NCBI GenBank assembly: GCA_016781845.1
Contig: JADDPP010000033.1
Coordinates: 1 to 37,051 of the forward strand
DNA from: Rubrobacter sp.
GTDB lineage: Bacteria > Chloroflexota > Chloroflexia > Thermobaculales > Thermobaculaceae
Reading direction: 5' to 3'
DNA length: 37,051 nucleotides
Position numbers and translations under genes: made by a program. The notes below the pieces were generated by a model that was not told the origin of the DNA, did no database searches, and saw only the letters and a program-made list of their open reading frames with translations. Of the stretch, positions 9,166 to 27,508 are shown piece after piece (the stretch's first letter is position 1; each line of letters starts with the position of its first letter).

Positions 9166-11667
9166 CTAAGCGCTATCGCCTCGTCCGGCGGTCCACGGGA
9201 GAGTAAAGCAGAATATGCTTCCCCGTTCCTCGGCGCCCTCTACCCAGATTCGCCCGCCGTGGCGCTCCACGATGCTCCTGCTGATGTAGAGGCCCAGGCC
9301 CAGCCCCCCGTAGTTCTGGTTGGCGTTGTCGGCCCGCGAGTACATCTCGAATATCCTCTCCCGCTGTCCCTCCGGCACTCCGATGCCATAATCGCGGACC
9401 GTGACCATGGCCTCGGAGCCCGACTCGCGCACGCTCACCTCCACACGGCCGCTGCCGTCGCTGTACCGGACGGCGTTCGACAGCAGGTTCTGCACGACCT
9501 GTCGAATGCCGGACCGGTCGGCGCGGACGTTCAGCGGCCCCCCAGAGGTATCGAAGACGAAGTCGAACTTGGGGAGAGTCTCCGCCATCTCGTCCACCAC
9601 CTCCCGCACGCCCTCAACTAGATCGAACTCCTCGATGTGGAGGTCGAGCTGCCCGGTCTCGATGCGGCTCACATCCAGCAGTTGCTTGATGAGATCGGCC
9701 ATCCTGTCCACGTTCCGCCCCAGGATCTGCAGGGGGCGGTCCAGCTTATGTTCGGACCTCACCGCTTCCGGTAGCCTGGAGGAGAGCAGTTGGACGGGAC
9801 CCTTGATCATTGTGACGGGAGTCTTGAGCTCGTGGGACGCGATGGAGAGGAACTTGTCGCGTAGCTCCAGTGCCCGCTCCACCTCGCGCTTGCGCTCGGC
9901 GAGCTGCCCGGCCAGCTGAGCCACATCGCGGCTGGTGCTCTCTACCTCCGCCCGCAGCACATCCCGTGCCTTCTTCATCGCGATGAGGTTGCCCACCCGC
10001 GCCCTCAGTTCCTCCGCCGAGAACGGCTTCGTTAGGTAGTCCTGCGCGCCCTCGCGCAGCATCCGCGCGCGCAGCTCGTCTTCTGCTCTGGCCGTCAGCA
10101 GGACGATCGGGACGGAATGCAGCTCAGGGTGGCTTCGCGCCTCGCGCACCAGCTCATCCCCGCTCATCTCCGGCATCATCACGTCGGTGAGGATCAGGTC
10201 GGGCCGAAGGTCCAGGGCCTTCTCGACGCCCTCCCTGCCGTTCAGGGCCGAAACTACTCGGTACTGCCCTGCGAGCGTCTCGCTGACGAACCTGTTCATC
10301 TCGGGATTGTCCTCGACCACCAGCACGAGGGCCGTCCCCGGTTCCGTGGTTTCAGCTACGACAACGCTGGTGTCAGGGCGCAGCTCCTCCAGGGCTTGCG
10401 GGGAGCTCTCTTCAGGGCCAGTCGGCGTGACCCGGCCGCGGCGCACCTGTGTACCCTCCGGGGCAAGGAGTGGGAGCTCGACTCTGAAGAGCGCGCCGCC
10501 TTCGGGTGCGTCTCCGATGTTGATCCCGCCACCATGAAGCTCGACGAACTCTCTGGCGATGGCGAGCCCGAGCCCCGTGCCCCCGAAGCGCCGGGTAGAA
10601 CCGCCCTCTCCCTGCCGGAACCGCTCGAACACAGCCTCGCGCAGTTCCGGCTCCACGCCCGGACCGCTGTCCGCGACCTCGATCAGTGCTCGCTCCCCCT
10701 CGGCTCGGAGCTCGGCGCGCACGGAGCCGCCGTCCGGCGTGAACTTGAACGCGTTGGACAGGAGGTTCAGGAGCACCCTCTGGAGCTTCTCAGGGTCTAC
10801 CTGCGCCGACAATGATCGGGGCGTCTGGACCGTGAACGAGATCGCGCGCTCGCGGGCCAGCGGGTCGAAGTGGGAGGCGGTGAGGCGCACCTGCTCCGCG
10901 AGGTCCACCTCCGCGTAGTCGAGATTCATCCTACCCGCCTCCAGCTTCGAGGCGTCGAGCAGGTCGTTGACGTGCTTGAGGAGTATGTGAGCGTTGCGAT
11001 CCACCACATCGAGGTCTCGTCTCTGCCCCTCGCTCAGGTCTCCACCGTCCCGCAGCTTTCGGACAGGTCCGAGAATGAGCGCGAGCGGAGTGCGCAGCTC
11101 GTGGCTGACGTTGGCGAAGAACTGCGACTTGAGCTGGTCCAGTTCCCTGAGCTGCTCTGTGGCCGCCTCCAGCTCACGGTTGGCCTCGAGGAGTTGCTGC
11201 CTGCGCTCCTCGGACAGCCTGCTGGACTCCACCATCGTGAGCACCTTCGGAAGGAGAGGGGGCAGGACGAGCGCTGTGCCTACCGAAGCGATGGCGGTGA
11301 CCACCTTCACCCCGCCTGAGAGCCAGTACAGCGGGGTGTAGACGGTTGCGACCGCCAGGGCATGGGTGAACCCGCACGCGATGATGAACACACCGAACGC
11401 GACGAACGTCCACATGAACGGCAGGCCCGAGCGGGCCTTGATGGCGAGATAGCCGAGCATAGCGGATATAGCCATGTAGCTCAACGCGGTCGAGAGATCC
11501 GCGAGTACGTGCGTGGTGATCAGCAGAACGTCCCAGCCGAGGGCCTCTCCTCGCGGCTCCAGTCCCTCGTGGCCGGTGAACATCTGCACCAGCGCGGGCA
11601 GTGCCAGCGCCGCGGCGACGAGCAGCCAGACGCCGCGGGGAGCTTGCATGGTGGGGCGGTGTAACAA
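9166..11667 (-). CDS. Hybrid histidine kinase with ethylene-receptor-like sensor
   Basis: The protein has 833 residues. The N-terminus is membrane-bound, and residues about 50-145 resemble the plant ETR1 ethylene-binding domain. Asp57 and Tyr64 sit at ETR1 spacing (Asp25/Tyr32). Cys98 and His102 in FIIACGFTH match the copper ligands Cys65/His69 in CGATH, and TAIASVGTALVL matches ETR1's third helix. A coiled linker leads to HisKA with phospho-His189 (SHELRTP) and an HATPase (NAFKFTPDGG, GTGLGLAI). A receiver domain (446-560, Asp495, TKPF) comes next. A second HisKA with His612 (SHELKTP) and a second HATPase follow. The TTG start at 11667 is set by AGGAGG at 11674-11679. No partner response regulator with a DNA-binding domain is nearby. 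The ligand is inferred. Confidence 0.9.
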   Translation of the reverse strand: MLHRPTMQAPRGVWLLVAAALALPALVQMFTGHEGLEPRGEALGWDVLLITTHVLADLSTALSYMAISAMLGYLAIKARSGLPFMWTFVAFGVFIIACGFTHALAVATVYTPLYWLSGGVKVVTAIASVGTALVLPPLLPKVLTMVESSRLSEERRQQLLEANRELEAATEQLRELDQLKSQFFANVSHELRTPLALILGPVRKLRDGGDLSEGQRRDLDVVDRNAHILLKHVNDLLDASKLEAGRMNLDYAEVDLAEQVRLTASHFDPLARERAISFTVQTPRSLSAQVDPEKLQRVLLNLLSNAFKFTPDGGSVRAELRAEGERALIEVADSGPGVEPELREAVFERFRQGEGGSTRRFGGTGLGLAIAREFVELHGGGINIGDAPEGGALFRVELPLLAPEGTQVRRGRVTPTGPEESSPQALEELRPDTSVVVAETTEPGTALVLVVEDNPEMNRFVSETLAGQYRVVSALNGREGVEKALDLRPDLILTDVMMPEMSGDELVREARSHPELHSVPIVLLTARAEDELRARMLREGAQDYLTKPFSAEELRARVGNLIAMKKARDVLRAEVESTSRDVAQLAGQLAERKREVERALELRDKFLSIASHELKTPVTMIKGPVQLLSSRLPEAVRSEHKLDRPLQILGRNVDRMADLIKQLLDVSRIETGQLDLHIEEFDLVEGVREVVDEMAETLPKFDFVFDTSGGPLNVRADRSGIRQVVQNLLSNAVRYSDGSGRVEVSVRESGSEAMVTVRDYGIGVPEGQRERIFEMYSRADNANQNYGGLGLGLYISRSIVERHGGRIWVEGAEERGSIFCFTLPWTAGRGDSA

Positions 11668-11688
11668 GTTCGGCCTCCTGGTGCGGTT

Positions 11689-11992: not shown

Positions 11993-12829
11993 ATGGATGT
12001 ATCCTGCCTGCAGCACTGGCTGACACCGGAGGACCGCCGCACCTTTGAGGAGACAGGGGTGCTCACTGTCGAGGATGCCCTCTCGTCCGAGCATGTGGAC
12101 GCGCTGACGGAGGCCACGGACCGGGTTTACGGTCAGGCCAGGTCCTCGGGAGGCGCGGCCCCGGGGAGGAGCTACTTCCACCCCAATTTCATCCCGGACG
12201 ACGCCCTATTCGCTGATCTTGTGGACTACCCTAAGGTGCTGCCAAAAGTGTGGGGCATCCTCGGCTGGAATATCTTTCTGTACCACGCTCACCTCATCGT
12301 CACACCCCCGTCGGGACAGCCGCGGGATGACAAGACGTTTGGATGGCACCAGGATAGCGGGCGCGTGAACGTCGAGATGGAGACCAGCCCCAGGCCGCGG
12401 CTCTCGCTCAAGGTTGCGTACTTCCTGTCCGACACCAGCGAGGAGGGCCGGGGCAACTTCTGGGTTGTTCCCGGCAGCCACCTGCGCGACACTCTGGATT
12501 GCCCGTCAGACGGCGTAGGTCAGCCCGAGGGAGCGACACCCGTACTCGCGAAGCCCGGCACCGCTGTCTTCTTCGACCGCCGCACCTGGCACAGTGCCAG
12601 CCCGAACTGGTCTGATGTCACCCGCAAGGTGCTCTTCTACGGCTACGGCTACCGCTGGATACGCACGAAGGATGACATGACGGTGCAGGGCCTGTGGGAG
12701 AAGAGCGATCCCGTACGCAGGCAGCTCCTGGGGGACGGGATAAACGCGAACGGCCGCTACTCCCCGACGGATGCGGATGTTCCCCTGCGCGTCTGGCTGC
12801 GGGAGCACTGCCCGGAGGACGCGAAGTAA
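11993..12829 (+). CDS. Phytanoyl-CoA dioxygenase (PhyH) family protein
   Basis: This 278-residue protein belongs to the Fe(II)/2-oxoglutarate oxygenases. The facial triad is visible as His119 and Asp121 in GWHQD and His200 in RRTWHSA. Arg211 (SDVTRKV) is placed to bind the 2-oxoglutarate carboxylate. A VVPGSH segment precedes the last strand, as in PhyH proteins. Family members hydroxylate lipids, ectoine or secondary metabolites, and the substrate here is unknown. The ATG follows AAAGGAG with suitable spacing. The gene stands alone, divergent from the kinase and convergent with the EamA transporter 45 bases away. A strong hairpin lies 110 bases upstream. Confidence 0.87.
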   Translation: MDVSCLQHWLTPEDRRTFEETGVLTVEDALSSEHVDALTEATDRVYGQARSSGGAAPGRSYFHPNFIPDDALFADLVDYPKVLPKVWGILGWNIFLYHAHLIVTPPSGQPRDDKTFGWHQDSGRVNVEMETSPRPRLSLKVAYFLSDTSEEGRGNFWVVPGSHLRDTLDCPSDGVGQPEGATPVLAKPGTAVFFDRRTWHSASPNWSDVTRKVLFYGYGYRWIRTKDDMTVQGLWEKSDPVRRQLLGDGINANGRYSPTDADVPLRVWLREHCPEDAK

Positions 12830-15230: not shown

Positions 15231-16250
15231 TCACGGGCGCGCTTCAGCTATCTCTATCAGCTGCGCCGCGGCAGCCAGCCCGGACATCGCCGCCCCCTCG
15301 ACTTTGGGGCCGCCGAACGCATCGCCGGCGAACACGAGTGGTGGAGCGACCGAGGCGAGCAGGCACGGCTCGGGGTACGGCTCGACTGGCATGCTGTAGC
15401 GCCAGCGGCTGAACTGCACTCTCCTGACTGGGGCGCCGACGAAATCCCCCACATATCCCAGAAGCTCCAAAGCCACCGTCTCATCCGCAACCTCCCAGCG
15501 CTCGGCGCTGAACTGAGGTCCCGCGTGGAGCGTGATCGCCGGCACGGGGGAGATGCCTTTGCGCTTGTTGTCCGCGAGCCACCAAACAGGCTCGCCCGTG
15601 CCGTTCTGTCCCGAGTACTGGATGCCTCCGGGCTCGGGCGTCCGGCATGGCCCGTCCAGTAGCGCCATCACCGAGATGCACCGCTGGTAGTCTATGCGCT
15701 CTAACGCCTCTCGCACCTCAGCCGGTAGCCCAACCGCTCCCGCGCTCACAAGGGCGAGGGACTGAGGTACAGGGGCGGTGAGGATGAGGCACCGTGCTGA
15801 GAGCACGGCGCCGCTTTCCGTGCTAGCCCGCCAGGCCCGACCGGCTCGTGCCACCTCAACCACGCGCTGCCCCGTCCGAACGTCCAGCCCGCGCGCGAGG
15901 TGCTTCGCTATAGCTGTCATTCCGGTGCTGCCACGGTAGCGCGGGTAGCCGTCCGGCTCGTAGCGGCCGTCGGGCGTCGCGAAGCCGCGCGACCACTCCT
16001 CGACGATGCCCGCCGCCCACCACTCCGACACCATTTGCTCGAACTGCTCGCCGCGGACGGTGAAGAACTGCGCCCCGTGGTCGAAGACGCCGTCCTCGAT
16101 GCGCTGCGTCGCGAGCCTGCCGCCCACGCCCCGGCCCTTGTCGAGCACGGTCACTTCCCAGCCTCGGTCGCACAGCGTCCGCGCCGCAAGCAGGCCAGAG
16201 AGTCCAGCGCCTACAACCAGACACGATTGCGTGTGCTCTTCGGTGCTCAT
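15231..16250 (-). CDS. FAD-dependent oxidoreductase (renalase-like)
   Basis: This 339-residue flavoprotein has an N-terminal Rossmann dinucleotide motif (VVGAGLSGLLAARTL) and the VLDKGRGVGGRLATQR segment typical of amine-oxidase and renalase-like enzymes. It then has a FDHGAQFFTV substrate-domain strand, and an FAD-contacting FAGDAFGGPKVEGA motif near the C-terminus. It is 154 bases downstream of the prenyltransferase on the same strand, so it may belong to the carotenoid transcription unit. The role there is inferred only. It could also be an unrelated flavoenzyme. The protein is shorter than the CrtI desaturase and lacks its C-terminal signature. Confidence 0.82.
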   Translation of the reverse strand: MSTEEHTQSCLVVGAGLSGLLAARTLCDRGWEVTVLDKGRGVGGRLATQRIEDGVFDHGAQFFTVRGEQFEQMVSEWWAAGIVEEWSRGFATPDGRYEPDGYPRYRGSTGMTAIAKHLARGLDVRTGQRVVEVARAGRAWRASTESGAVLSARCLILTAPVPQSLALVSAGAVGLPAEVREALERIDYQRCISVMALLDGPCRTPEPGGIQYSGQNGTGEPVWWLADNKRKGISPVPAITLHAGPQFSAERWEVADETVALELLGYVGDFVGAPVRRVQFSRWRYSMPVEPYPEPCLLASVAPPLVFAGDAFGGPKVEGAAMSGLAAAAQLIEIAEARP

Positions 16251-16404
16251 CTCGTCCCCTTTCTGGCTCCCTGAAGCAGCGATGCACCCACGGCTACTGC
16301 GACAAGGAACTATGCGAACAGCGCGGTGCCTTCAAGCAAGCCAACACTGCCCGCAAAGGCATCGCGGCCTGGATGTCCATAGCTACCCTCCCGGCCAGTC
16401 CAAC

Positions 16405-17250
16405 TCATCTCGCCAGCGGCCACAGGAACCGCAGCGTGAGGCACATTCCAGCGAGGCCGTTGAGCACGGGAAAGAAGCGGTACCACTGAGAAACGCGCGC
16501 CCGTGCTCTCAGCAACTGCGCGGTCATCACGAGGGGATACACCCCCAGCAGGAGTCCAGCCAGCGCGTCGTGCAGACTGACCAGCAGCGCGGCGCCGAGG
16601 TAGGAGAGGGCACACATCAGAAGCGTCCCCTCGTGGCCCAGCAGGGTCGCGATGGTGCTCAGCCCCGCTCGCCTGTCCGACTCGATGTCCGGCACCGCGG
16701 AGTAGGCGTGCATCGCGGCGCACCAGAGCACTCCGGCCAGCATGAGCGAGGGCAGGGGCATGTCGGACGTGAAGCTCCACCAGCCGGCGAGGAGCGGGGT
16801 CAGGTACAGGGAGTTGCTGAGGCTGTCGAGCACGGGGCGCGCCTTGAGCCGAAGCGGAGGGACGCTGTACGCTACGGCGAGAGCGAGGAAGAGAGCGAAG
16901 GCGAGGACGACCCGCGTGTTGCTGGCGACGAGCGCGGGGACCGCGAGACCCGTCAGCAGGAGTATGGTTCCGAGCAGCGCGGGACGCTCGTGGGGGTAGA
17001 CCAACGCTTCATCGCGGACCTTCTTCGGGTTGTGCTGGTCCGTGTCGTAGTCCGAGATGTCGTTCACCCCGTACAGCAGCAGGTTTGCGGGAAAGGTCCA
17101 CCACGCGAAGAGCGACCAGAACGGCCAGGACCACAGCTGCGATGGGTCCTCCAGCGCGAGCACCGCGCCGAGAAAGTACGGCCCGAGCAGGTACAGCCAG
17201 AACTTGGGTCGCGATATCTTCAGGTACTTGCGTGCATCAGTGGAGTACAT
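16405..17250 (-). CDS. UbiA-family prenyltransferase, lycopene elongase-like
   Basis: The product is a 281-residue membrane protein with about eight to nine hydrophobic helices. Two Asp-rich prenyl-diphosphate motifs are present: NDxxDxxxD at Asn63-Asp71 (NDISDYDTD) and DxxxD at Asp188-Asp192 (DIESD). The early SRPKFWLYLLGP stretch, PANLLLYGVNDISDYDTD and the central PVLDSLSNSLY segment resemble lycopene elongases of the CrtEb/LyeJ kind, as I know them. Those add C5 units to lycopene to make C45/C50 carotenoids. The gene overlaps crtB by 14 bases, so carotenoid use is likely. A quinone or bacteriochlorophyll prenyltransferase is the main alternative. Confidence 0.8.
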   Translation of the reverse strand: MYSTDARKYLKISRPKFWLYLLGPYFLGAVLALEDPSQLWSWPFWSLFAWWTFPANLLLYGVNDISDYDTDQHNPKKVRDEALVYPHERPALLGTILLLTGLAVPALVASNTRVVLAFALFLALAVAYSVPPLRLKARPVLDSLSNSLYLTPLLAGWWSFTSDMPLPSLMLAGVLWCAAMHAYSAVPDIESDRRAGLSTIATLLGHEGTLLMCALSYLGAALLVSLHDALAGLLLGVYPLVMTAQLLRARARVSQWYRFFPVLNGLAGMCLTLRFLWPLAR

Positions 17251-18082
17251 ACGCCGCGTTCCACGCCCGGTACAGGATGGGCAGGTAGTCGGTGCGCCTG
17301 TGCGCGAGTCTCGTCCGCCACACCACCATGGGGTCCCTCAGGATCTGCTGAAGGGTGTGCTGGTACCCGATAGATGAGAGCGCCACCGCGAGCCGGCTCT
17401 GCCAGGGGATGAGCGGAAACCCTGTATGTGCGAATCGGTACTGCCCCAGGTTGCGCTCCGCCTGAAAGCGAATCAGCGCGCCGAACCGGTCCGGGTCCAC
17501 GCCCGCGTTCCAGTCGCGCTCACGGATGCCGAAGCGCTCCAGGTCCTCCAGCGGCACGTAGATGCGCCCGCGCTCCTCCCAGTCCTCGCCGATGTCCCGG
17601 TAGAAGTTCGTGAGCTGCATCGCCAGCCCGAGCTCTCGGGCCGCGTCCAAGCCCTCCTGCGGCACCCCCATCACCTTCGCCATCATGAGGCCCACCACCT
17701 CTGCAGAGCCGTACACGTACTTGCACAGGTCTTCGTACGTATCATAGCGTGAGACGGTGAGGTCCATGGCCATAGCATCGAGGAACGCATCGGCCCATTC
17801 CTTCGGTATGCCCTGGACGCGAGCCGTATTGCAGAAGGCGCGCAGTACGGCGTCGTCCGACGTGCCAGTAGCCCACGTCGCCTCGTATATCTCGCGAAAG
17901 CGCATCATCTCGGCGGTAGGATCGCCCACCGGGTTGTCCACGTACTCATCTGGCGTACGGAAAAAGGCGTACAGTGCGTACACGTGGTAGCGCGTCGTGC
18001 TCGGGAAGAACTGCGAGGAGTAGTAGTACGTTCGCGAGTAGCCCCGAAATATGTTCTGACAGACGAGCAGGTCACTTTCCAT
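17237..18082 (-). CDS. crtB: Phytoene synthase (squalene/phytoene synthase family)
   Basis: This 281-residue enzyme joins two geranylgeranyl diphosphates head to head into phytoene, the first carotenoid-specific step. The first Asp-rich motif is DEYVD (Asp45-Asp49), preceded by TP instead of the usual C-D. The second is in TNFYRDIGEDWEERGRIYVP (about 155-175), with the RGRxYxP tail of the family. The length is normal. The start overlaps crtI by 11 bases and the end overlaps the prenyltransferase by 14 bases, so all three are translationally coupled. No geranylgeranyl diphosphate synthase is in the window, so the precursor comes from elsewhere. Confidence 0.93.
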   Translation of the reverse strand: MESDLLVCQNIFRGYSRTYYYSSQFFPSTTRYHVYALYAFFRTPDEYVDNPVGDPTAEMMRFREIYEATWATGTSDDAVLRAFCNTARVQGIPKEWADAFLDAMAMDLTVSRYDTYEDLCKYVYGSAEVVGLMMAKVMGVPQEGLDAARELGLAMQLTNFYRDIGEDWEERGRIYVPLEDLERFGIRERDWNAGVDPDRFGALIRFQAERNLGQYRFAHTGFPLIPWQSRLAVALSSIGYQHTLQQILRDPMVVWRTRLAHRRTDYLPILYRAWNAAYVLH

Positions 18083-19553
18083 ACATCACACGCTTGTACG
18101 CGAGCTGCGCGCTTATCAGGCACATCGGCATTCCTACCCCTGGGTTTGTGCTCGCCCCCACGTAGTACAGCCCGCGCACCTTCTTGCTACGGTTGCCTGG
18201 TCTCCAGATAGCCGATTGGCGCATCGTGTGCGCCAGCCCGAGCGCGGAACCGCGGTAGCTGTTGTACCGCGACGCGAAGTCGTTGATGGAGAAGATATGC
18301 TGCTTGACGATGTGCTCCCGCAGCTGCGGAATGCCCATCTTTTCAGTTACGAGACTCAGGGTTTTGTCTGCGTACCGCTCGCGAACCTCGGTTGTGTCCT
18401 CAAGACCTGGCGCGATGGGTACGAGGATGAACAGGTTTTCCTGCCCCGGCGGCGCGACTGTTGGGTCCGTCTTGCTGGGACAGCAGATGTACACCGACGG
18501 GTTCTCGGGGTACGCTGGCCTGTCGAAGATATGCGCGAAGTTGGAGCGCCAGTCATCGCAGAAGTAGAGGTTGTGGTGCTCCAGCTGTGGAAGTTGTGTG
18601 TCGAGTCCCAGGTACATGATGAACGCGGACGGCGCGAGCTTCCGCTTCTCCCAGTAGCGCTCTCGGTATGTCTGATACTTGGGCTCCAGTAGTTGCGTCT
18701 CGGTGTGGTGCATGTCTGCATTTGACACAATGATATCCGCCTGCACAATCCCCTCGGCAGTTTGCACCCCCACCACCCGGCCCTTTTCGACGAGGACGCT
18801 TTCCACGGGAGCCCTGCACCTGATCTCCGTCCCCTGCTGCTTCGCGATGCGCGCGAGCACTCGGATGACCTCGTGGATTCCGCCTTCCGGGTACCACACA
18901 CCCATGTTGAAGTCAACGTGGGCCATGATGTTGTACAGCGCGGGTGTGGCGTACGGCGAGCTCCCGAGGAAAACGAGGGTGTACTGGATGATCTTGCGCA
19001 GCTTCGGATGCTTGAAGAAGCGGGAGACGTACCTGTCCATTGACTCAAAGACGTGCAGCTTCGGCCCTTCGAGCAGAGTTTGCCGGGAGAAGAAGTCGCG
19101 GTAAGAGTCGTAGTTCTTCGGCACGAAGTCGCGCATCGCGATGCCGTACTGGTACTCGCTGAGGCGCAGGTACTCACGCAAGCGCTCCCCCGCGCCCGGC
19201 TCGTAACGCTCGAAGGTGGCCGCATCCGTATCGAGGTCGCCGGTCATGTCCATGACCTCGCCATCCTCGAAGAAGATGCGGTAACTGGGCGTCAGGCGCT
19301 GGAGCTTGAGGTGGTCCTCCACCCGCTCCCCCAAGAGCTCGAAGAACTGCTCGAACACATCGGGCATCAGGTACCAGGACGGTCCCATATCCCACCGGAA
19401 CCTGCCGTCCTCCAGCACGCTCGCCCTGCCGCCGACCTGCTCGTTCTTCTCCAGCAGGGTCACATCGTACCCTTCTCTGGAAAGCAGGCAGGCTGCGCCG
19501 AGTCCGCCGAATCCCCCGCCTATGACGACAACTTTCTTGCCTGTATCGGTCAT
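18072..19553 (-). CDS. crtI: Phytoene desaturase (CrtI family)
   Basis: This 493-residue FAD enzyme oxidises phytoene stepwise to coloured polyenes, typically lycopene. The N-terminal dinucleotide-binding motif (VVVIGGGFGGLGAACLLSR) and the EKNEQVGGRA segment are followed by the DMGPSWYLMPDVFEQFF motif typical of CrtI. The C-terminal signature is LYYVGASTNPGVGMPMCLIS. Length and motifs are standard. It is first in the crtI-crtB-prenyltransferase unit, with a -35/-10 pair 77-105 bases upstream and an inverted repeat in between. The desaturation extent cannot be read from the sequence. A diapophytoene desaturase is less likely given the phytoene synthase partner. Confidence 0.93.
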   Translation of the reverse strand: MTDTGKKVVVIGGGFGGLGAACLLSREGYDVTLLEKNEQVGGRASVLEDGRFRWDMGPSWYLMPDVFEQFFELLGERVEDHLKLQRLTPSYRIFFEDGEVMDMTGDLDTDAATFERYEPGAGERLREYLRLSEYQYGIAMRDFVPKNYDSYRDFFSRQTLLEGPKLHVFESMDRYVSRFFKHPKLRKIIQYTLVFLGSSPYATPALYNIMAHVDFNMGVWYPEGGIHEVIRVLARIAKQQGTEIRCRAPVESVLVEKGRVVGVQTAEGIVQADIIVSNADMHHTETQLLEPKYQTYRERYWEKRKLAPSAFIMYLGLDTQLPQLEHHNLYFCDDWRSNFAHIFDRPAYPENPSVYICCPSKTDPTVAPPGQENLFILVPIAPGLEDTTEVRERYADKTLSLVTEKMGIPQLREHIVKQHIFSINDFASRYNSYRGSALGLAHTMRQSAIWRPGNRSKKVRGLYYVGASTNPGVGMPMCLISAQLAYKRVMYGK

Positions 19554-20412: not shown

Positions 20413-21348
20413 TCAACAGACCCGCCCGCGCTTGCCCGCCGAGGTGTGGCCAATCGGGTTCTCGCCGACCCACCGCTCATCAACCTGTTCCGACGCTAGC
20501 TGGTAGCGGAAATCGCACGACAGGCGGATGCGGTCGGGAGTGGTGTTGTCGAGGCTGCCATGGACAGTGAACATCGTGAACGTGAGCAGGTCCCCCGCGC
20601 GGAACTCGCCCGTGAGCCACCGCCCGCCCAGACGCTGACGCAGGTACCTCGGGTTGTTCGAGAGCCAACCCGACCACCACTTGCGGCCGCTGGCGTACTC
20701 CGGCGCATCAGGGCGGTTGGAGCAGTACGCGTCAACGTCCTTCTTGCCGTAGTGGTTTCGGATTCGGTCCAGCTTGTGAGAGCCCTCCAGCATCATCAGG
20801 CCGCCGAGCTCGTAGCTCACGTCGCCGAGCGGCACCCAGCCGGTGTACAGGTTCTGCGTGCCGCGGTTCATGTACACACTGTCGCCGTGCGGCGGCGTGC
20901 CATGGCCGGGACGGACCGCCCGCAGCCAGGTGTAGTCGTAATGCAGCACCTCCCCTCCAAGGAAGTGCGTGTAAAAATCCCTCATTCTTCCGGAGTACAG
21001 CAGCCGCTGCAAGGGCTCGCTTGCTCGGGCAATGTCCGCGCGCAGCCCGCTCTTCCGCTCGGGCGCCGCGTACGCCTCCATTATCGGCGTGTCTGGTTGC
21101 AGGTATCCCTCCGCGGCGAGCCTGGTGAAGATGTCATGCCGCGCCTCCAGCACGAGGTCGCGGTCGAGGTAGCCGGGAAGGTACAGGTAGCCGTCCTCCT
21201 CCATCCGCTCCCGCAGTGCCCGCGCGTCGTCAACCAGGTGCGCTGAGCTACGCAACTCTCCGAGGTTCTCTGGCGCACTGTCGAGAGGGTGGCCGCACGA
21301 CATAATAGAGGGTATGGTTGTTGTGGGTGAAATAGACTGCAGTGTCAC
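20413..21348 (-). CDS. Phytanoyl-CoA dioxygenase (PhyH) family protein
   Basis: The GTG at 21348 follows an AAGGAGG site (21354-21360), so the longer upstream frame is not used. The product has 311 residues. The Fe(II) triad is His154 and Asp156 in PPHGD and His263 in FTVHGS, with Arg273 (PDRIRL) for 2-oxoglutarate. A MMLEGSHKL segment parallels the PGSH of other family members. It differs clearly from the other PhyH protein (11993-12829) in the central insert and C-terminus, so they are not a recent duplication. It lies 118 bases downstream of the ABC exporter genes. Its substrate is unknown. Confidence 0.87.
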   Translation of the reverse strand: MTLQSISPTTTIPSIMSCGHPLDSAPENLGELRSSAHLVDDARALRERMEEDGYLYLPGYLDRDLVLEARHDIFTRLAAEGYLQPDTPIMEAYAAPERKSGLRADIARASEPLQRLLYSGRMRDFYTHFLGGEVLHYDYTWLRAVRPGHGTPPHGDSVYMNRGTQNLYTGWVPLGDVSYELGGLMMLEGSHKLDRIRNHYGKKDVDAYCSNRPDAPEYASGRKWWSGWLSNNPRYLRQRLGGRWLTGEFRAGDLLTFTMFTVHGSLDNTTPDRIRLSCDFRYQLASEQVDERWVGENPIGHTSAGKRGRVC

Positions 21349-21466
21349 ATTCGCCTCCTTGTGCCGGTTAGTGGGGCGTGCAAGTCCAGGGGAACGGCGT
21401 ACGCCGAGACGCTTGATGCATGGGGGGTCCACCGGGCATTGGTATAACCGCTGCCGTTAGCACGCG

Positions 21467-22246
21467 CTACTCCCCCGGCTGCTCCCGTGCCCAGTGCTCG
21501 ATGATACGGCCGTCCTGCATGCGGTAGATCTCATCCGCGTACTGCTCCACGGTAGGGTCGTGGGTAGCCATTATGAGCGTGACACCCTCGCGGTCCACGA
21601 TGTCGCGGAGCAGTTGCATGATCTTCGCGCCGGTCTTGCTATCGAGCTCCCCTGTGGGCTCATCTCCGATGAGGACGCGCGGCCGGCTCACGAGGGCCCT
21701 CGCTATCGCCACCCGCTGCTGCTGGCCTCCGGACATCTCGTACGGGCGGTGGTTTGCCCATCGCTCGAGCCCAACGAGCGCGAGCGCGTCCTCCACGCGC
21801 TGCCTGCGCTCCTTCGCGCCGACCTTGCCCGCGATCCTCAGCGGCAGCTCGACGTTCTCGGCGGTGGAGAGGATGGGTAGTAGAGCGTACGACTGAAACA
21901 CAAAGCCGTACTCCTCGCGCCGCAGCCGGGTCAGCTCGTTGTCCGAGAGCTTGCTCAACGGGCGGCCCTCGACGTACACCTCGCCCGTGCTCGGCTGGTC
22001 GAGCGCGCCGATCATGTTGAGCAGGGTAGTCTTGCCCGATCCCGACCGGCCCATAAGCGCGACGAATGAGCCGGTAGGGACGGAAAGGCTGACACCCGCA
22101 AGTGCGTGTACCTGCTGGTTCCCGACGGTGAAGGAGCGGGTCACGTTGTCGGCTAGTATGACGGGCTGTGAGTCCGCGCCGTTAGCGCCTTGCCGAGTGT
22201 CGCGGACGCGACTTGAAGCCGCCACAGTTCGGGTATCCGCGGTCAC
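21467..22246 (-). CDS. ABC transporter ATP-binding protein (MacB/LolD-type)
   Basis: This 259-residue ATPase has Walker A (GRSGSGKTT, residues 66-74), the signature MSGGQQQRVAIARAL (from 171), Walker B with VLIGDEPTG, and a switch histidine in MATHDPTV. The FVFQSYALLPILSTAENVE stretch and short length mark the MacB/LolD export group, which drives mechanotransmission by FtsX-like permeases. The GTG start at 22246 overlaps the stop of the upstream ATPase as GTGA, and GGAGG lies eight to ten bases before it. It is the second ATPase in the unit, downstream of an ATPase with an extra domain. Confidence 0.93.
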   Translation of the reverse strand: MTADTRTVAASSRVRDTRQGANGADSQPVILADNVTRSFTVGNQQVHALAGVSLSVPTGSFVALMGRSGSGKTTLLNMIGALDQPSTGEVYVEGRPLSKLSDNELTRLRREEYGFVFQSYALLPILSTAENVELPLRIAGKVGAKERRQRVEDALALVGLERWANHRPYEMSGGQQQRVAIARALVSRPRVLIGDEPTGELDSKTGAKIMQLLRDIVDREGVTLIMATHDPTVEQYADEIYRMQDGRIIEHWAREQPGE

Positions 22247-23334
22247 TCTGCGTTACCTCCTCGCTTACGTCCGAAGCGACTAGCCCAACGACGACCGAGG
22301 CCCGGTTTCGGAGGCGGCGGCTCGTCGCTCTCAACCAGGGAGCGCGGCACGGGGCGAGTGTCGCCCTCCACAGGCTTGATGACGATGCCGTCCTCCGTGG
22401 CCTCAAGCGTTACCCGTCCACCCATGCCATACCGGTCCCGATACTCCTCCGGCAACTGCAGGCGCCCGGCCTGGTCGAGCACCGTGTACTCCACCAGGCT
22501 GTGCGGCTGCACCTCGGTGTCAGCCTCCCCGTCCTCAGTATTTCTTGCGGGTTGGCGCAGCGTCTCGCTGCTAGTCTTGCCGTCGCGGATAGCGACGACG
22601 CGGGCGACATGGTTGGCTATCTGCGGGTCGTGCGAGACGATGACGACGGTAAGGCCGTACTGCTCGTTCAGTTTGTGGAAAATGTCGAAGATAACTCCTG
22701 CCGTCGTTGAGTCGAGCTCTCCCGTTGGCTCGTCGGCGAGCAGGAGGTCGGGTTTGTTCGCGAGCGCGACCGCGATCGCCACGCGCTGTTGCTCGCCACC
22801 GGACATCTGGTCGAGGCGGTGGTGTCGGCGGTGGGCGATGCCGACCGCCTCCAGCAACTCTCCAGCCCACTTGCGCCGCTCTGACGGGCGCGTGCCGGCC
22901 ATGAGCATCGGCAGCTCCACGTTCTGCTCGGAGTTCAGGTAGGGGATGAGGTTGCGCGCGGTCTGCTGCCAGACGAAGCCCACGCTGTGGCGGCGGTACC
23001 GGTTCAGCGCGCGCTCGTTCATCTTGAGGAGGTCGTTCCCGCCAACGCTAGCCCTGCCAGCCGTCGGCCGATCCAGCCCGCCGAGGATGTTCAGAAGTGT
23101 GCTCTTGCCGGAGCCGGATTGCCCGACAATCGCCATTACCTCTCCCCGGTTCACCAGGAGGTCAAGTCCCTGGAGCGCCAGGAGCTCTACCTCCTCGAGC
23201 TTGTATATCTTGACCAGACCCTCGCACACTATCAGAGGGTCGGGTGCTGAGGGCTGAGGGACTGCGGGCTGTGTTGCCACGCTTGAATCTTCGGTCCTCG
23301 GTCCTCGGGCCCCATCGCTCGTCGTCTGTATCAC
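22243..23334 (-). CDS. ABC transporter ATPase with C-terminal AbrB-like domain
   Basis: The product has 363 residues. A longer frame exists upstream, but the GTG at 23334 overlaps the permease stop as GTGA and fits the unit. Walker A is GQSGSGKST (71-79), the signature MSGGEQQ (177-183), Walker B LLLADEPTG (197-205), and the H-loop SHDPQ. After the ATPase core, residues about 282-322 form a strand-turn-strand pattern (VLDQAGRLQLPEEYRDRYG, then VTLEATEDGIVIKP) of the AbrB/SpoVT swapped-hairpin type. The tail is proline- and arginine-rich. A fused DNA-binding-like domain on a MacB-type ATPase is unusual. It may act as a dimer or regulatory module rather than bind DNA. Confidence 0.88.
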   Translation of the reverse strand: MIQTTSDGARGPRTEDSSVATQPAVPQPSAPDPLIVCEGLVKIYKLEEVELLALQGLDLLVNRGEVMAIVGQSGSGKSTLLNILGGLDRPTAGRASVGGNDLLKMNERALNRYRRHSVGFVWQQTARNLIPYLNSEQNVELPMLMAGTRPSERRKWAGELLEAVGIAHRRHHRLDQMSGGEQQRVAIAVALANKPDLLLADEPTGELDSTTAGVIFDIFHKLNEQYGLTVVIVSHDPQIANHVARVVAIRDGKTSSETLRQPARNTEDGEADTEVQPHSLVEYTVLDQAGRLQLPEEYRDRYGMGGRVTLEATEDGIVIKPVEGDTRPVPRSLVESDEPPPPKPGLGRRWASRFGRKRGGNAE

Positions 23335-26264
23335 GTTGCCTCTCCTAGCTTCACCGCCCTGAATATCTTGAGCCGCAACAGGAATGCCGCGACGACCACG
23401 AGCGCCCCGCCGAGCAGTACAGCGAAGATCGCGTAGATGAGCTGTATCTGCCCCCATGCGATGAGCACGTGGAACGGAGGGGTCTGGGGGTGCTCCCCGC
23501 CGCGCACCTGCAGGAACGGGATGAAGTATCGGCTTACTCCCAACCCTAGCAGCGTGCCCGACAGAACGCCCATGCCGATGATTAGCGCCTGCTCCCATAC
23601 CAGCAGCACTCCCATCTGTCGCACGGACAGACCGATGGCCCGGAGCATTCCGAGCTCGATGTAGCGCCGCTGGAAGGAGGTAACAGAGTAGAACAGGAAG
23701 CCGAGCCCGGTGAGAAGCGCGGAGGCGAGGAAGCCGACCGAGAGCAGCCCGTACAGCCCCTGCCGCTCGGGACGGTCCTGCGCGGCGAGGACCGTCTTCG
23801 GTGCCTCGTCGGTCACCAGGCTGCGCAGACCGAGCTTTCCAATGCCCATCTCTACCTGTGCCCGCGAGGTGCCGGGCTCAGTATTGAGCCATACCTCGTA
23901 CGGGAACTCGCCGCCCTGCGCCTGGAAGATGTACTCCAGGTTGCCCACGAAGAACGCCCCGTCCTCGGGATAGACTGTGGGGAAGTAATCGAGAACTCCG
24001 CCGACCACGAACGGGACCTGCGCTGGCCGGTCAAGGTCGCGCAGCTCCAGCGTAATTCTGTCGCCTACCTTCGCTCCGCTCTGCTGCAGAAATCCCCGGC
24101 TGACGAGCACAGCCTCCGGCCGCACCGCGAGCGTGTTCATGAGGGCGCCGAGCTGGGCGGGAGCGTAGTCGTCTCGCCAGTGCGCGACACGTGGGAAGTC
24201 CAGACGGTCTATTCCGAGCAGAGTTCCCTGCGCAGTGGTCTTGCCTGCCTGCGCCTCGGCGTCGCTGCGCGATACCCGCGTGGCGCCCGTGACGCCGGGT
24301 ATCTGGAGGTAGTCCGTCACGGGTGTGAACAGGTACTTTGGTGCGGACGCATCGTTGTTGCCCGTGTCCTGTTGCTGCTCACCGGCCTGTCCTGCCTCAC
24401 CTGCCCCGTCTCCGGCGCCAGCGTCGGCCGACCCTGACCCGCCTGCCGCCTCTCCCCCATCCTGCTGCTTCACCTCGCCCAGGTCCGCGACGCGCATCTG
24501 CGCGCCCACGTCGTACAGCACCTGGTCGTTGAGGTGCTTGTCGAGGGTGCGAGCCATGGACGCCGTGAACGTGGCGAGGCTTAGCGTGAGTATGAGCAAC
24601 AGCACGGGGGCGGTGTACGCGCGCGGTGTGCGCGTGAGGTAGCGCAGCGCGAGCAGCCCCGACACCCCGCGCAGCCGGTTCACGGCATCGCCCACCAGGC
24701 CCATCAGGAGCGGGAAGAGGCGGATGCTCAGGAGCGCCAGCGCCAGCAGCCAAAGTGCCGGGGTGAGGATGAGCAGCGGGTTGGAGTACGGATCGCCGCC
24801 CGGTGTGTCGCCTCCACTGAACGAGATCGTGCCTCGCGCGGCGAGCTGCCGGTAGCCGTAGTACGCGATCAGTAGCAGCACCACGTCAAAATAGAGTCGC
24901 TGCCATAAGGGCTTCCGGATGGAGCGCGCGCGCTCTGCCTTGTAGGAGATGATCGTCAGCCCCGCGGCGCCGAACGCGGGCAGCAGGCTTGCCACAAGCG
25001 TCAGAAGCACGACGAAGACGGCGCTCTGTATGCTTTCCGGGGAGATCTCCACGGGCACGTCCGACCGAGGTGTGAACTCCAGGAAGGAGCGAGTCCAGCC
25101 CATAAGCGTGGCGACGAAGCGGCCGAGCAGCACACCGAGCACGAGCGCGGCCAGACCCAGGCCAAGCCCTTCAAGAAGGTAGATTCCCAGCACCTCCGAG
25201 CGTGACGCTCCGCGGCTATGGAGGACAGCTATCTCATTCTGCTGGCGCTGGATCACCAACCCGGTGATCATAATGATGAAGTAGCCGATGAGTCCGAGGA
25301 TGGGCAGGGCGAACATGACGAGGCTGAGAGTCAGGAGGCGGACCTGCCTGAATTGACGTTCCAGCGCGTCCTGCGGCGACACCCGCAGGCTCGTGCCCGG
25401 AAGTACCTGGGTCACCTGGCTCAGGACGGCCTCGGCCCTGCTCGCCAGCACCGGGGCGTGGCGACTGCGCACCTCGGAGCCGTCGAGCACGAAGTACCAC
25501 AGTGCCTGGTAAAGCGCGTCAGGGTGCGGGCGGAGCACGCGCGCCTGGAACGTTTGCTCTGGCACGAGCAACACGTCCTCCAGCGAGCGCGGGCGGATGA
25601 ACCAGTACGAGTCGTTCTCGTTGCGCGCCTGCCAGATGCCGGCTATACGCACGGGAACGCTCATCGCCCCATCACCACCGCCACGTTTGCGGACCACGTA
25701 CTCCTCGCCCGTCTGCAGTCCCAACTGCGTCGCGAGGAGTTCGTGGACCATTACCTCGACGGAGCCGGAAGCGTCCGTCGAGGCTTTCGGGAACGCTCCC
25801 TCAGTAATCTCCGCGTGCTTCTCTATGTCGCTTGCGAACCCGAGGTTGACGTACTCCAGCTGGCCCTCCAGCCGGTACTCGCCCTCCTCCGTTGGTAGAA
25901 GTGGGAGTTTGTCGGTGGTCGCGTACCGTACGTAGATATCGGCGGGTAGACCGAGGTCTTCGGCTCCAGAGCTGGAGAGGTACGAGTCTGCCTGCTGGTA
26001 CTGCTGGGCGGTGATAGGGCCGCCGCTACGGACGCGCGAGAAGAGGTAGGCAAACGGCGGACGGGGAGTGGCCTCGCCTGGCTCCGGTTCCAGCTCGGTA
26101 CGGAGGATGCGGTAGCCGACAGCATCCGCGTATAGAGGGATGCTTACGACGAGCGCTATAGCGACGACAAACCCTGCGAGCCGCGCGAGGACCAGCCCAA
26201 GATAGCTGCGCTGCCTCTGCCCAACAACCTTGATCAGGCCGAGTCCGTTAAGCAGCCAATACAT
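23331..26264 (-). CDS. FtsX-type ABC transporter permease
   Basis: This 977-residue membrane protein has an N-terminal helix (about 20-45), a large extracytoplasmic domain, and three helices near 310-440 (YFIIMITGLVIQRQQNEIAV and following). Two more helix pairs follow near 480-550. A second extracytoplasmic domain lies around 590-800, and a final FtsX domain near 840-970 ends in VVVAAFLLRLKIF. A low-complexity Gly/Ala/Ser/Gln stretch (near 605-645) links the second soluble domain. The arrangement matches the two-repeat MacB/LolCE-like permeases with duplicated FtsX domains. Coupled overlaps with both ATPases and a fusion protein just upstream make it the core of an exporter. The cargo is unknown. 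Confidence 0.9.
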   Translation of the reverse strand: MYWLLNGLGLIKVVGQRQRSYLGLVLARLAGFVVAIALVVSIPLYADAVGYRILRTELEPEPGEATPRPPFAYLFSRVRSGGPITAQQYQQADSYLSSSGAEDLGLPADIYVRYATTDKLPLLPTEEGEYRLEGQLEYVNLGFASDIEKHAEITEGAFPKASTDASGSVEVMVHELLATQLGLQTGEEYVVRKRGGGDGAMSVPVRIAGIWQARNENDSYWFIRPRSLEDVLLVPEQTFQARVLRPHPDALYQALWYFVLDGSEVRSRHAPVLASRAEAVLSQVTQVLPGTSLRVSPQDALERQFRQVRLLTLSLVMFALPILGLIGYFIIMITGLVIQRQQNEIAVLHSRGASRSEVLGIYLLEGLGLGLAALVLGVLLGRFVATLMGWTRSFLEFTPRSDVPVEISPESIQSAVFVVLLTLVASLLPAFGAAGLTIISYKAERARSIRKPLWQRLYFDVVLLLIAYYGYRQLAARGTISFSGGDTPGGDPYSNPLLILTPALWLLALALLSIRLFPLLMGLVGDAVNRLRGVSGLLALRYLTRTPRAYTAPVLLLILTLSLATFTASMARTLDKHLNDQVLYDVGAQMRVADLGEVKQQDGGEAAGGSGSADAGAGDGAGEAGQAGEQQQDTGNNDASAPKYLFTPVTDYLQIPGVTGATRVSRSDAEAQAGKTTAQGTLLGIDRLDFPRVAHWRDDYAPAQLGALMNTLAVRPEAVLVSRGFLQQSGAKVGDRITLELRDLDRPAQVPFVVGGVLDYFPTVYPEDGAFFVGNLEYIFQAQGGEFPYEVWLNTEPGTSRAQVEMGIGKLGLRSLVTDEAPKTVLAAQDRPERQGLYGLLSVGFLASALLTGLGFLFYSVTSFQRRYIELGMLRAIGLSVRQMGVLLVWEQALIIGMGVLSGTLLGLGVSRYFIPFLQVRGGEHPQTPPFHVLIAWGQIQLIYAIFAVLLGGALVVVAAFLLRLKIFRAVKLGEAT

Positions 26265-26288
26265 GTCGGTCCTTTCTACTCTCCAAGC

Positions 26289-27461
26289 TTACTGCCCTAC
26301 AACGACCTGGCCTTCTTCCAGGCCGCTCTTGATCTCAACCTTGCCAGCGCCGGTGATGCCTACCTCGATGTCCACGCGCCGCTGGCGGTTGCCCTCCTGC
26401 ACCACGGCGAACTGCCGTCCCTGGAAGGTGCGCAGCGCCGCGGGGGGAAGCACGAGCACGTTCTCCTTGCGCTGGAGCGTTACGATAGCCTGCGCCAGGT
26501 CGCCAATGTCCAGGTCGAGCTTGCCGGGATCATAGCTGATGTGTACGGTGCTGTCGGGGTTGAGATCGGTGCCGCTGGTGGCTCCCTGCGGCAACCGCTT
26601 GATGACGCCCTGTATAGGAGTCTCCTCGTAACGGTTGAACAGCAACGTGACCCGCTGGTTCACACCCAGTCGCTGCAGCTCCGAGCCCGTGACATTCTCT
26701 ACTCGGACCTCGCGCTCGCTGGGGTCCACTATTGTGACGACTGGAGCGTACTCCTCGACGCTCGCACCTGGCTCGACCGCCACTGCCGACACCTCGCCAG
26801 CGAAGGGTGCGAGCAGACGGCCGGCCTGTGCCTGGGCGTTCAGCCGGTTGTACTCGAGCTGGGCCTGCGCGACCCGCGCCTCTGCCTCCTCGTTCGTGAT
26901 CAGCTGCGCTTCCTGCAGCCCTACCTGTGCTCGGCGCACGCCGATCCGCGCAAGGACACGCTCATCCTCCGTCGTGGCCTGCCGGAGCTTGGCCTGCGCC
27001 TCCTCCAGGTCGAGCTGTGCGCGCTGGACGGCGAAGCGCTGGGACGCCTCCCCACGGTTGAGCTCAAGCTTCGCCTGTTCGAGCGCGGCCCTCGCCTGTG
27101 CGAGGTTGTTAGCCAACTCGCCCTGCTCCAGCTCCGCGAGCAGTTGGCCTTTCTTCACCTTCTGCCCCTGACGAACATGGATGCGCGCTACTCTGCCCGC
27201 TTTCGTGAAACCTACGTCCTCCTGGCGCACGGCCGCGACGCGCCCTGAGAGGCGCAACTCCTCAACGATATCGCCCCGAGCAACTTTGTACGTGGGGCGC
27301 TCGATGGTGCGCGCCTGGGGTATGGGGGTAGGCGTCGGCTGTGCGCCCTGACCCGTGCCGCAGGCCGCCAGAACAGCGCCCGCAACCAGCGCTGCGAGGC
27401 CCGCGCGTAGCGCCTGGGTACCTCTGCCACATTGAGTGGAATCTCGTGTCGCCATATCCAT
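26289..27461 (-). CDS. Periplasmic adaptor (HlyD/MFP) lipoprotein
   Basis: The product has 390 residues from the ATG at 27461, which has a GGAAGGGG site 11 bases upstream. An ATG at 27482 and another at 27455 are also in frame. A hydrophobic signal with a lipobox (LAAC, Cys34) suggests lipid anchoring. Then come a lipoyl-like hairpin pair (VGFTKAGRVARIHVRQGQKV), a long alpha-hairpin (about 125-220, rich in Gln, Glu and Ala) and a beta-barrel domain. It would bridge the permease to the outer layers or cargo. It is 24 bases upstream of the permease and first in the unit. The adaptor family is clear, the exported substrate is not. Confidence 0.9.
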   Translation of the reverse strand: MDMATRDSTQCGRGTQALRAGLAALVAGAVLAACGTGQGAQPTPTPIPQARTIERPTYKVARGDIVEELRLSGRVAAVRQEDVGFTKAGRVARIHVRQGQKVKKGQLLAELEQGELANNLAQARAALEQAKLELNRGEASQRFAVQRAQLDLEEAQAKLRQATTEDERVLARIGVRRAQVGLQEAQLITNEEAEARVAQAQLEYNRLNAQAQAGRLLAPFAGEVSAVAVEPGASVEEYAPVVTIVDPSEREVRVENVTGSELQRLGVNQRVTLLFNRYEETPIQGVIKRLPQGATSGTDLNPDSTVHISYDPGKLDLDIGDLAQAIVTLQRKENVLVLPPAALRTFQGRQFAVVQEGNRQRRVDIEVGITGAGKVEIKSGLEEGQVVVGQ

Positions 27462-27508
27462 CTGCTGGTGGTCCCCTTCCATTTCGAGTGCTCAATCATA
27501 GCGGCTCG

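Follow-up and report, generated by a model that had tools for sequence, protein, structure and literature searches.

The locus considered here raises the question of whether a bacterium of the Chloroflexota carries a true ethylene receptor on a kinase of unusual design, or a known type of sensor whose ligand may be something else. The gene lies in the window, by which we mean the whole analysed stretch of 37,051 nt, as a single open frame of 833 aa on the minus strand (9166-11667), and the sequence can be read with a TTG start at 11667 and an AGGAGG ribosome-binding site (11674-11679, minus strand) 6 nt 5' of it. Taken together, the analyses show that its product is an ETR1-type sensor on a well-formed hybrid kinase, of an already known kind.

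Pfam places an ethylene-receptor-like membrane domain, ETR1_N (PF25487), at residues 49-144 (11236-11523, minus strand), with an E-value of 5.7e-27 and a score of 94.3 bits for a curated cut-off of 27 bits, and a genome profile search found this domain once in the 3.6-Mb draft genome (E 3.8e-28). Ahead of the ETR1-like helices, a hydropathy peak of 2.0 near residue 22 marks an extra N-terminal hydrophobic helix at about residues 11-31 (11575-11637, minus strand). Behind them, also on the minus strand, Pfam and motif inspection located a first histidine kinase (HisKA and HATPase_c, 10468-11130, phospho-acceptor His189), a receiver (Response_reg, residues 448-558, 9994-10326, phospho-acceptor Asp495) and a second histidine kinase (HisKA and HATPase_c, 9193-9876, phospho-acceptor His612). 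Each kinase retains its H, N and G boxes, and the Asp, Thr and Lys of the receiver are likewise present, so that kinase and receiver, with His189, Asp495, His612 and the nucleotide boxes in place, make up a hybrid histidine kinase in the order that the preliminary description had given. Within the 833-aa protein, Pfam found no sensory domain other than ETR1_N.

Across the whole-domain alignment, the sensor is 30% identical to AtETR1, the residue numbering of the reference sequence agreeing with the cited papers. The alignment equates Asp57 (codon 11497-11499, minus strand, as for all codons here) with Asp25 of ETR1, Tyr64 (11476-11478) with Tyr32, Ile67 with Ile35, Ile95 with Ile62, Cys98 (11374-11376) with Cys65, His102 (11362-11364) with His69, and Lys121 (11305-11307) with Lys91, for which a salt bridge to Asp25 has been proposed. 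ETR1 binds Cu(I) through Cys65 and His69 (PMC13012798, PMC6586836), which makes Cys98 and His102 the candidate Cu(I) ligands here. The earlier claims of homology to the ETR1 sensor and of a Cys/His copper motif are thus upheld by the profile match and by Asp, Tyr, Cys and His at matching positions, and Cys98, His102 and Asp57, the loss of which in orthologs would have spoken against them, are retained in all rows of the co-linear family described below. The near-identical spacing also claimed holds for the intervals from Asp to Tyr (+7) and from Cys to His (+4), which are the same as in AtETR1; the TM1-TM2 loop is one residue longer than in ETR1.

Structure prediction agrees with this assignment. 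AlphaFold2, supplied with an alignment of 38 sensor sequences, gave a three-helix layout with a mean pLDDT of 90, the predicted helices covering residues 47-77 (with Asp57, Tyr64 and Ser68), 85-110 (with Cys98 and His102) and 114-175 (with Lys121), and these helices together with hydropathy describe a three-transmembrane-helix sensor; in the model, helix 3 continues into the cytosol. Sequence searches with the window sensor and ETR1 as queries yielded no PDB template for the ETR1 membrane domain, and a PDB fold search with the sensor model returned no significant match. In a viral structure library, the model had one significant match, the unnamed 289-aa protein A0A8E4UZR7 (E 2.7e-4, TM 0.68, 25% identity).

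The one departure concerns a residue that matters for ethylene. Alanine scanning showed that seven ETR1 residues, including Pro36, are required for ethylene binding (PMC11819568, PMC6586836), and a tomato receptor with Pro36Leu makes the plant ethylene-insensitive (PMC6727826). Six of these seven residues and Lys91 are kept in the window sensor, which favors the ethylene and Cu(I) reading, whereas Ser68 (11464-11466, minus strand) replaces Pro36 and leaves the ethylene-binding set incomplete, a point that the preliminary description did not contain. Ethylene is bound by both SynEtr1 of Synechocystis and AzoEtr1 of Azospirillum brasilense (PMC11819568), bacterial proteins that, like the window protein, join an ETR1-type sensor to a histidine kinase; they count in favor of ethylene, but they retain all seven residues. 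The same complete set is present in AzoEtr1 and the Geitlerinema receptors, and in AzoEtr1 it is identical to that of SynEtr1 and the Arabidopsis receptors (PMC11819568, PMC6682694); Pro36 is kept in every ethylene binder of the cited studies.

The substitution at Pro36 is not peculiar to this protein. In 115 aligned sensor domains, the position of Cys65 is conserved in 115/115 and that of His69 in 112/115, and the sensors found by the Pfam profile alone, with no peptide pattern, give similar figures (Cys 86/86, His 83/86). When the Pro36 column is masked, a tree of the 115 rows on 92 columns still divides, at 94/91, into branches of 40 and 75 rows. The 40-row branch, which includes the window sensor, has no Pro at the Pro36 position (34 Ser, 1 Thr, 3 Ala, 2 Phe), whereas the 75-row branch, which includes AtETR1, has Pro in 64/75 and Ser in 5/75. 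The branches also separate at ETR1 positions 33, 34, 57, 97 and 106, and the Pro36-less branch has a TM1-TM2 loop one residue longer, so that the window sensor combines Ser68 with the longer loop; with only 92 columns and many open forks, this split is supported rather than firm. In the cited literature, we found no ethylene-binding data for members of the Pro36-less branch. Tentatively, and with rather less than even confidence, we propose that this branch is a separate functional class, which would use the same Cu(I) site for a non-ethylene ligand or for ethylene at quite different affinity. Bacterial ETR1-type domains tend to receive the ethylene-receptor label by homology, and a large branch in which the copper site persists without a residue that ETR1 needs for binding indicates that this label needs testing. 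A different change was seen in three sensors from Bacteriovoracaceae, Muproteobacteria and Betaproteobacteria (L061, the same gene as L032; L036; and L063, the same gene as L042), in each of which Asn takes the place of Asp25 and Arg that of Lys91; in ETR1, Asp25Asn lowers ethylene affinity about 100-fold (PMC13012798).

Ser68 makes another gas, or copper itself, a serious rival to ethylene as the ligand. The Pro36-less branch may have kept its Cu(I) site to sense copper or redox state, CO, or some other small unsaturated molecule, a possibility that we rate well above a marginal one yet short of an even chance. The Pro36 that ETR1 requires (PMC11819568) has been lost in 40/40 branch rows, although Cys, His, Asp and Tyr hardly vary, and the five further positions and the longer loop point the same way; on the other hand, the remaining binding residues and Lys91 are all kept, and the Ser found in 5/75 rows of the Pro branch suggests that the change may be tolerated. 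The Fe sensing also suggested in the preliminary description drew no support from any of the tests run. It is improbable that the ETR1-like domain is a membrane anchor or dimerization module with little sensing of its own and input from elsewhere: the PAS or GAF domains of some relatives could sense instead, but the buried polar and metal-ligand residues, which an anchor does not need, are nearly invariant across phyla. That an ordinary membrane kinase should match ETR1 by chance, conceivable because CGxTH by itself is short, is refuted by the ETR1_N match at 5.7e-27 and further opposed by the absence of the domain from control genomes (0/14) and by the whole-domain identity to ETR1, and has next to no probability.

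The dual-kinase layout likewise has precedents. Pfam gives an identical domain order for seven cyanobacterial proteins (L010, L011, L017, L018, L022, L023 and L026), among them those of Phormidium tenue FACHB-886 (L022), Microseira wollei (L011) and Planktothrix (L023 and L026), and these cyanobacterial proteins share the residue set of the window sensor, including Ser at Pro36. Six of the seven are 43-50% identical to the window protein by BLAST over nearly the full length (838-902 alignment columns), L010 having been merged with its near-copy L074; L022, at 50% identity over 841 columns, is a co-linear homolog. In a family tree built on the sensor, first kinase and receiver with two outgroup rows, the window protein and its co-linear relatives form one group (100/100). 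The shared order, the co-linearity and this grouping indicate that the layout belongs to an existing family. Within the tree, the window protein pairs at 92/88, as two long branches, with L016 of Candidatus Chloroheliaceae, a member of the same phylum (Chloroflexota) and class that is 55% identical over the first 585 residues but carries a PAS domain ahead of its second kinase and is followed immediately by a response regulator gene. Other relatives differ as well, L013 by an extra receiver and L021 by a GAF domain, both absent from the window protein. AzoEtr1 is a 525-aa PAS-histidine kinase with a response regulator nearby, without internal receiver or second kinase, and AtETR1 shares the homologous three-helix sensor, the Cys/His Cu(I) ligands, the kinase and the receiver but differs in Pro36, a GAF domain and the lack of a second kinase.

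On this basis, the reading that we consider most likely, at about even odds, is that the window protein is a Cu(I)-dependent sensor of ethylene or another small gas that feeds a phosphorelay. By analogy with ETR1, the three-helix domain would probably be a dimer in which Cys98 and His102 of TM2 hold Cu(I) while Asp57 of TM1 and Lys121 of TM3 link the Cu(I) site to helix 3. A Cu(I)-binding small gas, most likely ethylene, would alter the Cu site, and the shift would travel along the continuous TM3 helix to the first kinase, which would then phosphorylate its receiver, if phosphate flows in that direction. From there, the receiver and second kinase may either relay phosphate to a response regulator encoded elsewhere or control its transfer. 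Direct support for this scheme comes from the domain order, the conserved residues, the intact kinase and receiver motifs, the three-helix prediction and the co-linear relatives, and the HMA copper-domain proteins of the genome, one of them on an 812-aa frame, count in favor of a Cu(I) sensor; against the scheme stand Ser68, at a position required for ethylene binding, and the lack of a response regulator among the scanned neighbor genes. A single-domain response regulator gene adjoins L013, L016, L017 and L022, which suggests a partner of that kind, whereas the window gene, unlike those of L013, L017 and L022, has none beside it. No response regulator or second receiver-domain gene was found among the window genes scanned around the sensor kinase, so the partner is probably encoded elsewhere.

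The distribution of the domain bears on the statement in the preliminary description that this combination would be of interest outside the cyanobacteria. ETR1_N domains are known from Cyanobacteria, Pseudomonadota, Planctomycetota, Acidobacteriota, Chloroflexota and others, and samples drawn around named genomes, every count taking in its centre genome, contain it in 45/146 (cyanobacterial), 18/249 (Pseudomonadota), 11/149 (Planctomycetes) and 7/119 (Acidobacteria) genomes. Putative ethylene receptors in non-cyanobacterial phyla have already been published, and AzoEtr1 is a proven ethylene receptor outside Cyanobacteria (PMC11819568). ETR1-type sensors are therefore common in bacteria outside cyanobacteria, as already published, and with an architecture common to cyanobacterial proteins, there is no support for calling the combination unusual. 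In Chloroflexota, its occurrence is patchy: ETR1_N was found in 6/400 genomes of the phylum sample, in 6/101 relatives of the source genome, those of its class including Candidatus Chloroheliaceae, Herpetosiphonaceae and Thermomicrobiales, and in 0/6 other genomes of the same family, the last of which counts against the scheme proposed above. Some cyanobacterial genomes hold many copies; the genome carrying L010 (G447) has seven ETR1_N matches, some with Pro36 and some with Ser36, and another (G587) has nine.

The sensor kinase gene stands by itself, its neighbors being a PhyH gene in divergent and a NUDIX gene in convergent orientation. A search for a terminator at this gene found none, and the single weak promoter-like match near it is on the opposite strand. 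Recent transfer from cyanobacteria was considered on the basis of composition and rejected, since 12 other window genes span GC3 values of 0.76-0.87 and this gene, at 0.84, falls among them and shows no sign of it; an older transfer may have occurred. Elsewhere in the window, two PhyH-type dioxygenase genes are present, the divergent neighbor (11993-12829) and another at 20413-21432. A minus-strand gene run at 15231-19553 gives FAD amine oxidase/desaturase-type, UbiA prenyltransferase and squalene/phytoene synthase matches, which suggest a pathway for carotenoids or related isoprenoids. Finally, the co-directional genes at 21467-27482 encode a pair of ABC ATPases together with an FtsX-type permease of 977 aa and an HlyD-type adaptor, and likely form an export system.
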